A model generated the notes under the pieces. That model was not told the origin of the DNA. It did not search any database and saw only the letters and a program-made list of their open reading frames with translations. Both the position numbers and the translations under genes were made by a program. A stretch of DNA of 64,000 bases from NCBI GenBank assembly GCA_902567685.1, contig CACFNH010000001.1, positions 62,001 through 126,000 of the forward strand. Direction: 5' to 3'. Within the stretch, counting starts at the first letter, position 1; every line of letters begins with the position of its first letter. Source of the stretch: an uncultured Pelagibacteraceae bacterium. GTDB taxonomy: Bacteria > Pseudomonadota > Alphaproteobacteria > Pelagibacterales > Pelagibacteraceae. Positions 53,637-57,628 of this stretch are shown here, in pieces.

Positions 53637-54137
53637 TTATTTTTTTTGTTCTTTTTTTGGTTCTTCTTTTACAATTTCTTTTTTTACAGTTTCTTCTTTA
53701 GGTTTATTTTCAACCTTTTGCTTTGAATCTATTTGTTCAACATCTTGTGCCTGAATAGAAAGATCAGCTCCAATTTTCTTTTTAATTTTTTCTGATATTC
53801 TTGCAGATTTTCCTTTTCTGTCTCTTAGGTAGTAAAGTTTAGATCTTTTAACATCCCCTGATCTTATTATCTTTATGGAGTCTACTATTGGGCTGTATAA
53901 AGCAAATGTTCTTTCAACTCCCTCACCAAATGAAATTTTTCTAACTGTAAATGATGAGTTTATGTCTCTATTTTTTTTAGCAATACATACTCCTTCAAAA
54001 AACTGCACTCTTTCTCTTTTACCTTCGATTATTTTTACACCTACTTTAATAGTATCACCTGGAAAAAATTCAGTAATTTTTTTATTTGAAGTAATTTTTT
54101 TAACCGCTTCTCTGTTTATGTCTTCGATATTTTTCAT
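53637..54137 (-). CDS. rplS: 50S ribosomal protein L19 portion, probably with its own ATG
   Basis: 166 residues from the internal ATG at 54137, opening [15 protein letters not shown]. The L19 core ([56 protein letters not shown]) covers about 1-125. The tail is Lys/Glu-rich, ending EEPKKEQKK, much longer than the 115-residue E. coli protein. It sits at the 30S-50S interface. Free L19 most likely comes from internal initiation here, since ribosomes would not easily take a 397-residue fusion. Confidence 0.82.
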
Positions 54138-54830
54138 TTTTTTTTTCTTGTTAGTGTATTTTTCCCACAAATCAGGTCTCTGGCGACGTGTTATAGCCTC
54201 TGATTGAGATAAACGCCAGCCTTTAATTTTGGCATGATCACCAGATAATAAGACCTCTGGAACGCTTTTTTCCTCCCAAATTTGAGGTTTAGTATATTGA
54301 GGATATTCTAATAATCCATTTTCAAAACTCTCATCATGCTTTGACATATTATTTCCAATCACATTAGGTAATAATCTTAAAATAGAGTCAATGACCACAA
54401 AAGAGGCTGACTCGCCTCCAGACAAAATATAATCTCCAATACTAATTTCCTCTATACCTCTTGTGCCCAAAATACGTTCATCTACTCCTTCAAAATGTCC
54501 ACATACTAAATTAATGGTTTTTTCTTTAGATAATTCTTTTGCAAATTTTTGATCAAATTTTTTTCCTTTTGGAGAGAGATAAAAAATTCTTTCACCTTTT
54601 TTAGCATTTTTATCTATGGATTTTCCTAAAACATCTGGTTTTAATAGCATGCCATTTCCACCTCCGAACGGAGTATCATCTACTGTTTTATGTTTGTCTT
54701 CGGCAGAATCTCGAATATTTACAACCTCTAGGCTCCATATTTTTTTTTCTAATGCTTTGCCATACAAACCCTTATCTAAAGGGCCTGGAAAAATTTCTGG
54801 ATACAAAGTAAATACTCGAGCTGTCCACAT
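53637..54830 (-). CDS. trmD-rplS: TrmD-L19 continuous frame: tRNA (guanine-N1)-methyltransferase plus ribosomal protein L19
   Basis: 397 codons without a stop. Residues 1-231 are Trm[23 protein letters not shown]-like start, [13 protein letters not shown], the trefoil-knot SAM site [11 protein letters not shown] near 130, and [13 protein letters not shown] near 195. Residues from Met232 are L19. TrmD makes m1G37 in tRNAs. The junction is coded by ten A (complement of 54137-54146). With nine A the frame would read into TGA, and trmD and rplS would overlap as ATGA, the layout seen elsewhere in this window. So the fusion is either a one-base insertion (error or mutation) or a real variable joint. 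rimM, usually between rpsP and trmD, is missing here. Confidence 0.85.
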
Positions 54831-55291
54831 TATTTCTTTGGTTCTTCTTTCTTAGCTTCTTGTTTAGGAGCTTCCTTCTTTGGTTCTTCTTTCTTAGCTT
54901 CTTGTTTAGGAGCTTCCTTCTTTGGTTCTTCTTTCTTAGCTTCTTGTTTAGGAGCTTCCTTCTTTGGTTCTTCTTTCTTAGCTTCTTTTTTCCTATCCTT
55001 CTTAGGAATTGCTTTAAGAGGATTATTGCCTGCTTTAGGCATAGGCATTAATTGTACTTCGGCTAAGATTCTTGAAACTCTTAGAGTTGGTTTGGCTCCC
55101 TTACTAATCCAATGTTTTACTCTTTCTGCTTCTACTTTGATCCTTTCTTTCTTTTCTTTAGGTAAAAGTGGATTGAAAGATCCCAATTTTTCCACAAACC
55201 TTCCATCTCTTGGAAATCTACTGTCAGCAACAACAATTTTATAAATTGGTCTTTTTTTAACTCCTCCCATTGATAGTCTTATTCTTAACAT
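54830..55291 (-). CDS. rpsP: 30S ribosomal protein S16 with a tandem-repeat tail
   Basis: 153 residues; the S16 core ([55 protein letters not shown]) covers about 1-80. The tail from about residue 98 consists of a 14-residue unit, [14 protein letters not shown], repeated three and a half times. E. coli S16 has 82 residues. The tail is likely disordered. The stop overlaps the trmD start (TAATG) and ffh lies 10 bases upstream. Confidence 0.93.
54840..54987 (-). repeat. 42-bp tandem repeat in the rpsP tail
   Basis: Three identical 42-bp copies (54840-54881, 54882-54923, 54924-54965) and a partial fourth (54966-54987). The period is a multiple of three, so copy-number change keeps the frame. Exact identity between copies suggests recent duplication. 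Confidence 0.92.
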
Positions 55292-55301
55292 TTTATACCT
55301 T

Positions 55302-56654
55302 TCATTTTAGTTGATTTAATATTTCATCAGGTATTGCTCCTGATGGAATTTTTTTACCTTTTGACATTTTTTTCATCATATCTGTCATCATTCTGAATTG
55401 TTTTAATAATTTGTTTATCTTTGAAACATCTACTCCAGAACCTTGTGCAATTCTTTTTCTTCTTGAGCCACTAATAACTTTTGGATTTTCTCTTTCTTCT
55501 TTGGTCATAGAAAGAATTATTGCTTCATTGGAGGTTATCATGTCCTCATCTATAGATGCATTTTTCATTTGTTCTTTCATTTTATTTACACCTGGAAGCA
55601 TAGACATTACTCCTTCCATTCCACCCATTTTTTTCATTTGCCGAAGTTGATTTAAATAACTATCCATCGTAAACATTCCATCTTTAAGCTCTTCTTCAGC
55701 TTTTTTTACTTTCTCTTGATCCAAATCTTGCGCAGCTTTTTCAACTAAAGAAACTATGTCTCCCATACCTAATATTCGATTAGCTATTCTCTCAGGATGA
55801 AACAGTTCAATATCTTCAATTTTTTCTCCAACACCAATATACTTAATAGGTTTACCGGTAATATGCTTCATGCTTAGTGCTGCTCCACCTCTTCCATCCC
55901 CATCTACTCTAGTTAAAATTATACTTGAAAGATTTACAAATGAATTAAATTCTTTTGCTACATTAACTGCTATCTGACCTGTAAGAGAGTCAGCAACTAA
56001 TATTGTTTCTGAAGATTTTGTTAATTCTTTAATTTGTTTTATCTCAGTCATCATTTTAAGATCAATTTGTGTTCTTCCAGCTGTATCAAAAATTATAACG
56101 TCGGAACCATTAAGGTTTGCGGCACTTAAAGCTCTTTTTGTAATATCAATAGGTAATTGTTTTTCTACTATAGGAAGATTTATAATATTATTCTTATCGG
56201 CTAAAATTTTTAATTGTTCTTGTGCGGCTGGTCTATAAACATCCAAACTTACTAACATAACTTTTTTTTTATGTTTTTCTCCAATTAACTTAGCTAATTT
56301 TGCTGCAGTTGTAGTTTTACCTGAGCCTTGCAAACCTACTAAAAGAAAAGATACTGGTGGAACAGCATTGAAGTTTAATTCTTGATTTTTAACTCCTAAA
56401 ATATTGATCAATTCATCATTAACAATTTTTACTATCATCTGGCCTGGGGATGTTGATCTAATAATTTCCTGGCCAATAGCTTTTGGTTTGATATTTTCTA
56501 TAAATTGTTTTGCTACAGGAAGAGCTACATCAGCTTCTAATAAAGCTTGCCTGATTTCTTTTAGCCCAGAATCTACCTGTTCTTCATTAAGTGAAGGGGC
56601 CTTTTTTAGTTTAGAAAATATACTTTCTAATTTATTTGTTAAATTTTCAAACAT
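55302..56654 (-). CDS. ffh: signal recognition particle protein Ffh
   Basis: 450 residues. N domain, then the GTPase with [15 protein letters not shown] near 107, DTAGRTQID near 188, [14 protein letters not shown] near 245, and the Met-rich M domain from about 325 ([30 protein letters not shown]) which binds SRP RNA. It targets inner-membrane proteins with its receptor FtsY, whose gene lies nearby on the other strand. Confidence 0.97.
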
Positions 56655-56673
56655 TTCTAATCACACAACAACT

Positions 56674-56753
56674 ATCGCACTAGTGGGCGAACCCTCGCTG
56701 ACTAGTGTCGATCCCTTTATTTCTAAAGGCACCGCAAAATCTAACATTTGCGG
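56674..56753 (-). ncRNA. hairpin-rich GC-richer element in the ffh leader, unassigned
   Basis: The gap between divergent ffh and dapF is much richer in G+C than its surroundings and holds three good hairpins. One is 56674-56712: ATCG/CGAT and CACTAGT/ACTAGTG stems with an internal bulge and a GGG-loop-CCC tip (loop UUCG on the minus strand). The others are 56714-56729 (CCTTTA/TAAAGG) and 56732-56753 (CCGCAAA/TTTGCGG). In an AT-rich genome this is a mark of structured RNA. It lies 20-100 bases before the ffh ATG, so it may be a leader or a small RNA. It lacks the conserved GGAA-loop core of SRP RNA. Strand not certain. Confidence 0.5.
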
Positions 56754-56791
56754 AAGTGACGAGAAGCTACAATTAAGGGTTTTAAAAGTCA

Positions 56792-57628
56792 ATGAATAAA
56801 GATACTAATCAAATTATGGCAACTATAAATGCTTACAGAATGGACGGTCTTGGAAACAATTTTTTAATCATAGACCGAAGAAAAGATTTTTTAGAAATAA
56901 ATAAAGAAAAAATTGTTAATCTAGCAAATAAAAAAGCTGTGCCGTTTGATCAATTAATCACTTTGGAAAAAGAAGAAGAAAAAACTTATCCTATTAAAAT
57001 TTTTAATCCAGATGGTGTCGAGGTGTCTGCCTGTGGAAATGGTGTAAGATGTATTGCGTACTTAATTTTCCAGGAAAATAATCAAAAAAGAATTCTAATA
57101 AAAACAACAGAAAGAATTTTAAATGCTGAGGTTATTGGAAAACAAAATATTAAAATAAATATGGGTAAACCAAAGTTTAATTGGGATGAAGTGCCGTTAA
57201 ATAAAAACATGGATACAAAACAAATTGGTATAGATGTAGTTGAGAAAGAACTTGGATATGGTTTTTGTTTGAATATCGGTAATCCTCATATTATTTTTTT
57301 TGTAAAAGATAGTTTTAAAATTGATATAAAAAAATTAGGACCCAAAATTGAAAATTATGAATTATTTCCTGAAAGAATTAATGTAACCTTTGCCCAAATT
57401 TTGGATAAAAAAAACATCAAAGTAAATGTTTGGGAAAGGGGGGCAGGTCAAACAAAAGCTTGTGGTACTGCTGCTTGTGCAACTGCTGTTGCTGCTTTAA
57501 AAAAAGGATTAACAGATAAAAATCTTAATATTCACTTTAAGGAAGGAAGTCTTCAAATTAATTATGAAGAAGAGATATTTATGACTGGACCTGTTTCCAA
57601 AGTTAAAAAAATTAACTTAGATATTTAA
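56792..57628 (+). CDS. dapF: diaminopimelate epimerase
   Basis: 278 residues from ATG 56792; an in-frame ATG at 56816 (MATINAYRMDGLGNNFLIID) may be the true start, as family members begin near this motif. The two catalytic cysteines are in SACGNGVRCIAY near 80 and KACGTAACATAVAAL near 228. It makes meso-diaminopimelate for peptidoglycan and lysA. It overlaps ftsY by one base; the mtaB-like gene often found between them in alphaproteobacteria is absent. Confidence 0.93.
   Translation: MNKDTNQIMATINAYRMDGLGNNFLIIDRRKDFLEINKEKIVNLANKKAVPFDQLITLEKEEEKTYPIKIFNPDGVEVSACGNGVRCIAYLIFQENNQKRILIKTTERILNAEVIGKQNIKINMGKPKFNWDEVPLNKNMDTKQIGIDVVEKELGYGFCLNIGNPHIIFFVKDSFKIDIKKLGPKIENYELFPERINVTFAQILDKKNIKVNVWERGAGQTKACGTAACATAVAALKKGLTDKNLNIHFKEGSLQINYEEEIFMTGPVSKVKKINLDI

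Follow-up and report, generated by a model that had tools for sequence, protein, structure and literature searches.

A three-hairpin RNA element lies before ffh, whose product is the protein half of the particle for protein export (SRP), in most of the Alphaproteobacteria sampled, and many of its members are missed by the Rfam family RF01793 (ffh), to which the copy in the window (the whole 64,000-nucleotide stretch of an uncultured Pelagibacteraceae genome analysed here) almost certainly belongs. RF01793 matches positions 56670-56722 on the minus strand with 55.4 bits against a gathering score of 35 (Rfam 15), and the sequence has the covarying bulged hairpin, the bulge cytosines and the same-strand site directly 5' of ffh that go with membership of the family. 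Since RF01793 matches it and the ffh motif was reported in 2009 from the corresponding spacer, between ffh (-) and dapF (+), of 'Cand. Pelagibacter ubique' HTCC1062 (Meyer et al., PMC2704228), the window element is already known, an ordinary representative of an orphan RNA family. It shares with the published motif the core hairpin, the bulge cytosines, the site before ffh and, in P. ubique, the ffh/dapF spacer, whereas two further hairpins (P2 and P3), a single-stranded 3' box, a variant whose core has C-G instead of the A.C mismatch, and a roughly doubled number of genomes are added here.

Identity and architecture of the ffh leader

Regarding base composition, positions 56655-56764 have a G+C content of 45.5% against a window mean of 29.1%, a value reached by 0.46% of the equal-length stretches of the window. 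The G+C-richer island described in an earlier note on this DNA is therefore present and its excess clear, although 45% against 29% is not the extreme contrast implied by "far more G+C". The three hairpins which that note had listed were recovered at 56674-56713, 56714-56729 and 56732-56753, each occurring once in the window. The UUCG cap it assigned to the long hairpin is an alternative reading and was rejected, being contradicted by conserved pairs of the hairpin top, which in relatives is GCGA/UCGC or GCGC/GCGC around a short loop and has a covarying last pair. Positions 56663-56760 fold with -34.7 kcal/mol on the minus strand and -37.4 kcal/mol on the plus strand, and none of 653 other 98-nt tiles of the whole window is as stable on either strand; shuffle z-scores for 56655-56791 are -3.3 (minus) and -5.3 (plus).

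No other Rfam family, including riboswitches and ribosomal-protein leaders, scored above threshold at the locus, and matches to CRISPR-DR17 and SNORD109A at 56500-56950 were discarded as far below the Rfam threshold. The earlier note had found no match to a known riboswitch or to SRP RNA; as to SRP RNA this agrees with the Rfam search, which does, however, assign the element to a known family. Its reading of the island as a structured RNA on the minus strand, forming the ffh leader, holds: the ffh upstream regions that it proposed to align show conservation and covariation in SAR11 and in other Alphaproteobacteria, and neither a lack of these nor an ordinary terminator pair, the outcomes it had named as speaking against its reading, appeared.

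The motif of Meyer et al. is a single bulged hairpin with conserved cytosines in the bulge (PMC2704228), and the RF01793 model omits two of the three helices found here, including only the 3' strand of P3, as unpaired. In the ffh upstream regions of SAR11 and other Alphaproteobacteria, P2 and P3 precede the Rfam hairpin (P4) almost without spacer (Table 1), giving an extended leader RNA of about 97 nt. This is the single match in the genome of the window, which is 82% complete, both to a covariance model built for the whole extended structure (R1) and to a second model that includes newly found R1 matches (R2); the E-values of both models are rough. In an alignment of 54 sequences, the P2-P3-P4 pairing is present in 94.3% of cells, against 40-50% for slid partners, and 214 cells are doubly changed compared with 74 in shuffles, counts that ignore phylogeny; in P4 all cells (100%) are paired and six of ten pairs doubly changed. 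In the 3' box, counted from the end of P4, U predominates at +4, position +10 is a pyrimidine and usually U, +11 is U, and G comes at +12 or +13, a pattern common to SAR11 and two other groups.

Table 1. Features of the extended ffh leader and its surroundings, in window positions
Feature	Position	Strand	Evidence or remark
Extended ffh leader RNA (P2, P3, P4 and 3' box)	56663..56760	-	R1 84.3 bits, E 5e-16; R2 80.6 bits
Hairpin P2, CCGCAAA/UUUGCGG	56732..56753	-	Absent from Rfam model; 4/7 pairs doubly changed, 93% of cells paired (54 sequences)
Hairpin P3, CCUUUA/UAAAGG	56714..56729	-	7/7 pairs doubly changed, 87% of cells paired (54 sequences)
Hairpin P4 (Rfam hairpin)	56678..56707	-	7 bp, tandem mismatches, then GCGA/UCGC
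Single-stranded 3' box UGUUG	56666..56670	-	Fixed spacing after P4; per-position base frequencies
-35 box TTGACT of ffh promoter	56787..56792	-	Touches first dapF ATG
Inferred transcription start region	56754..56760	-	From -35 distance, about 5 nt before P2
ffh, 450 aa	55302..56654	-	Start codon 11 nt after 3' box
rpsP (S16), next gene of operon, then trmD and rplS	54830..55291	-	S16 downstream of ffh in 20/20 genomes checked

The tandem mismatches of P4 are C56700.C56685 and A56699.C56686 in the window copy. Among 101 rows aligned to the model, one of them probably a second, false match in locus L100, the C.C mismatch is kept in all 101, while the position beside it is A.C in 61 rows and is replaced in the other 40 by C-G (35), G.U (4) or G-C (1). 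That one mismatch never varies while the positions around it covary would point to recognition. RF01793, whose model was built on A.C members, gives the C-G variant scores under its threshold.

An outer stem closing the three hairpins, suggested by single-sequence folds, was dropped as unsupported. In a partner test, strands of the same genome paired no better than strands combined across genomes outside SAR11 (p 0.25), and the advantage within SAR11 was only slight (p 0.04); the 5' strand of this stem, moreover, would for the most part precede the putative start of transcription. The junction of P2 and P3 (about 56729-56733 and 56712-56713) may be a branch-migrating one, as the GG that ends P2 has two possible partners: the CC at the start of P2, and the invariant UC that follows P3 (in alignment A1, columns 34-35 and 60-61). 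All of the bases concerned are nearly invariant. A long, nearly perfect GC-rich inverted repeat was observed between leader and ffh at loci L096 and L102, in two genomes of one family.

Distribution and genomic context in Alphaproteobacteria

Meyer et al. gave the range of the motif as P. ubique, Rhodobacterales, Sphingomonadales and Rhizobiales, and reported Rhodospirillales, Caulobacterales and other Rickettsiales to be without it (PMC2704228). Among 385 genomes of the class, R1 had matches in 132 at E 0.01, R2 in 231 and RF01793 in 106 at E 0.001 (81 over cut-off), where part of the gap between 231 and 106 comes from the differing thresholds and absences mean little because 10-14 candidates were scored per genome. 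R1 matched once per genome. In a sample of 398 genomes from the phylum, all matches listed fall in the same class. A pattern scan of named genomes served solely to supply named loci of SAR11 and Rhodobacterales, since its hits included chance matches from outside the class besides true members.

Forty R1 matches, from genomes with no reported RF01793 match or with none at the place concerned, were examined for their neighbours, and 39 of them sit 2-74 nt 5' of ffh on the same strand; all of 20 further R2 matches, half of which had been picked for weak E-values, also lie upstream of ffh. As the model takes no account of the neighbouring gene, these 59 of 60 newly found places form an independent check, and only three of the 59 reached the RF01793 gathering score when scored directly. 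Of the 89 RF01793 places fetched from the class, four are on pieces without ffh and the remaining 85 are all upstream of it on the same strand, at distances of 8-283 nt from the start codon. Overall, 144 of 145 places with known neighbours are linked to ffh. The distance of 283 nt (locus L084) is due to an intervening short frame, at 1560-1830, which resembles a small metal-binding domain.

Regarding the promoter, TTGAC was found 38-42 nt before P2 in 31 of 32 SAR11 and 27 of 47 other sequences, while the TTGACT of the window was not listed by a strict consensus promoter scan. As the -35 box keeps a constant distance, a promoter of the sigma70 type is predicted, with transcription beginning some 5 nt ahead of P2. 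In the window, the -35 box and the first ATG of dapF (56792) overlap, and dapF has another ATG in frame at 56819; if the first start is used, the divergent dapF promoter would consequently lie inside the ffh leader. The ribosome site of ffh in the window is without a clear Shine-Dalgarno sequence, and no intrinsic terminator (G+C-rich stem and T run) was detected on either strand at 56600-56900.

The genes 3' of ffh follow in a kept order: as far as the stretches covered extend, all 20 genomes checked have S16 there, 18 have trmD and 16 have rplS. The S16 protein of the window has a C-terminal tail of about three near-identical repeats. Its trmD and rplS are read as a single frame of 397 aa (53637-54830, minus strand), joined at a run of ten A, while in close relatives they are separate, slightly overlapping genes; the joined frame reflects either a true gene fusion or an assembly error, an indel in the homopolymer.

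Mode of action and alternative explanations

As a whole, the element is best explained as the cis-acting 5' leader of the ffh-rpsP-trmD-rplS messenger, which it probably is. Its tie to ffh argues for action in cis, and this part of the reading is likely; feedback by a product of the operon is proposed more tentatively.

It is unlikely that an independent, trans-acting small RNA gene lies between dapF and ffh by chance, the option that the earlier note had left beside a leader. Such a gene would be in line with the entry of RF01793 in Rfam as 'Gene; sRNA', although all evidence presented here points to a leader, with the detection of the motif among marine small RNAs noted by Meyer et al. (PMC2704228), and with findings in Sinorhizobium meliloti. 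In S. meliloti, the candidate Sm5 of the dapF< ffh> spacer, predicted to be 108-258 nt long, has a sigma70 promoter and gave an array signal on the ffh strand (PMC2573895), and deep sequencing gave a discrete RNA of 115 nt, SmelC778, overlapping Sm5 in the same place (PMC2873474); both are listed among small RNA candidates, and the text consulted makes no link to RF01793 (PMC2573895, PMC2873474). The dapF< ffh> spacer, the ffh strand, the sigma70 promoter and a length of 108-115 nt agree with the leader described here, the difference being the annotation as a small RNA candidate. From this position and from the report of the motif in Rhizobiales by Meyer et al., Sm5/SmelC778 is probably the RF01793 leader RNA, and there is thus probably at least one organism, S. 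meliloti, in which the leader builds up as a small RNA. A free small RNA gene would move, however, whereas 144 of the 145 places adjoin ffh on its strand, and in SAR11 the start codon follows 21-36 nt past P4, which leaves no room for a terminator; none was seen there. The tie to ffh thus makes the independent option less likely, although S. meliloti does have a discrete small RNA from this spacer.

Similarly, P4 is rather improbable as an intrinsic terminator that would make the leader a plain transcription attenuator. At least five T occur in the 8 nt directly behind P4 in 36 of 69 non-SAR11 sequences, a T-run of at least four was found in 17 of the 37 C-G variants and in 9 of the 46 sequences of the RF01793-like group, and a Rho-independent terminator was proposed for Sm5 (PMC2573895). 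The U-tract is missing in SAR11, however, with a run of three or more in 0 of 17 sequences and none in the window, so that termination cannot be the shared mechanism, and an ordinary terminator would not preserve the C.C mismatch and the fixed G/U box. The U-rich tail in about half of the non-SAR11 sequences suggests early termination in those organisms.

It is very doubtful that the element is SRP RNA or a decoy imitating its Ffh-binding domain. SRP RNA, which works with the product of the gene downstream of the leader, has GUCAG adjoining an A.C mismatch, and the leader, placed before ffh, likewise has GUCAG beside its A.C mismatch. This sequence is not kept in the leader (CCAG, ACAG, GCAG and UCCG variants occur), the RF00169 model of bacterial small SRP RNA has no match at the element, and the true SRP RNA, of other structure, is encoded by a separate gene at C1:312867, 194 kb distant, the sole RF00169 match in the genome. 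Meyer et al. also found the ffh motif to be without resemblance to SRP RNA (PMC2704228).

The structured strand is the ffh strand. A plus-strand structure, serving as a leader of the divergent dapF or as a palindromic protein site in DNA, was rejected on the direction of wobble pairs and is extremely improbable: the more stable plus-strand fold arises because the core A.C mismatch reads there as a U.G pair, whereas the Watson-Crick positions of P4 in 60 distinct core helices hold 23 G.U and 0 A.C on the ffh strand, of 79 sequences 62 have the more stable P3 on that strand and 10 the less stable one, and the element tracks ffh, dapF being found at no fewer than 41 of the 144 ffh loci.

For the cis-acting ffh leader, autogenous control is favoured as plausible, if unproven. 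P4 with the C.C mismatch, together with the 3' box, would be the putative recognition site, to which an operon product (Ffh, S16 or L19) or the assembled SRP would bind and thereby lower expression; owing to the kept order of the operon, synteny gives no means of choosing among Ffh, S16 and L19 as the ligand. Autogenous ribosomal-protein leaders are short structured 5' leaders of operons for RNA-binding proteins. The ffh leader is likewise short, structured and placed before an operon for RNA-binding proteins, but differs in that its core is without an rRNA-like copy in the genome. A search of the genome of the window, including 16S rRNA, for the core pattern returned a single occurrence, the element itself; rRNA mimicry was accordingly rejected, and as the core has no second genome copy, no mimicry of rRNA or SRP RNA favours a particular protein.

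In SAR11 only 11 nt separate the box from the start codon, and in the window a clear Shine-Dalgarno sequence is lacking, so that a bound protein would block ribosome entry and hence initiation. Blocking of the ribosome cannot be the shared mechanism either, since the distance to the start codon varies across 8-283 nt. In Alphaproteobacteria with a U-tract behind P4, binding could instead favour early termination and so yield a small RNA of about 100-115 nt.

Thus, the P2 and P3 hairpins, the 3' box, the wider range and the invariant C.C mismatch with its variable neighbour are new here, and the published family covers one of the three helices and less than half of the genomes found by the extended model; the Rfam model RF01793 should give way to a longer one. 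The marine motif is probably linked to an RNA already sequenced in S. meliloti. The invariant C.C mismatch and the 3' box could possibly form a specific binding site, widespread in Alphaproteobacteria, by which cells tune how much Ffh they contain; if true, this would be a dedicated RNA control of SRP levels, and the redefined leader with its invariant mismatch gives a precise mutation target for how bacteria set the amount of Ffh.
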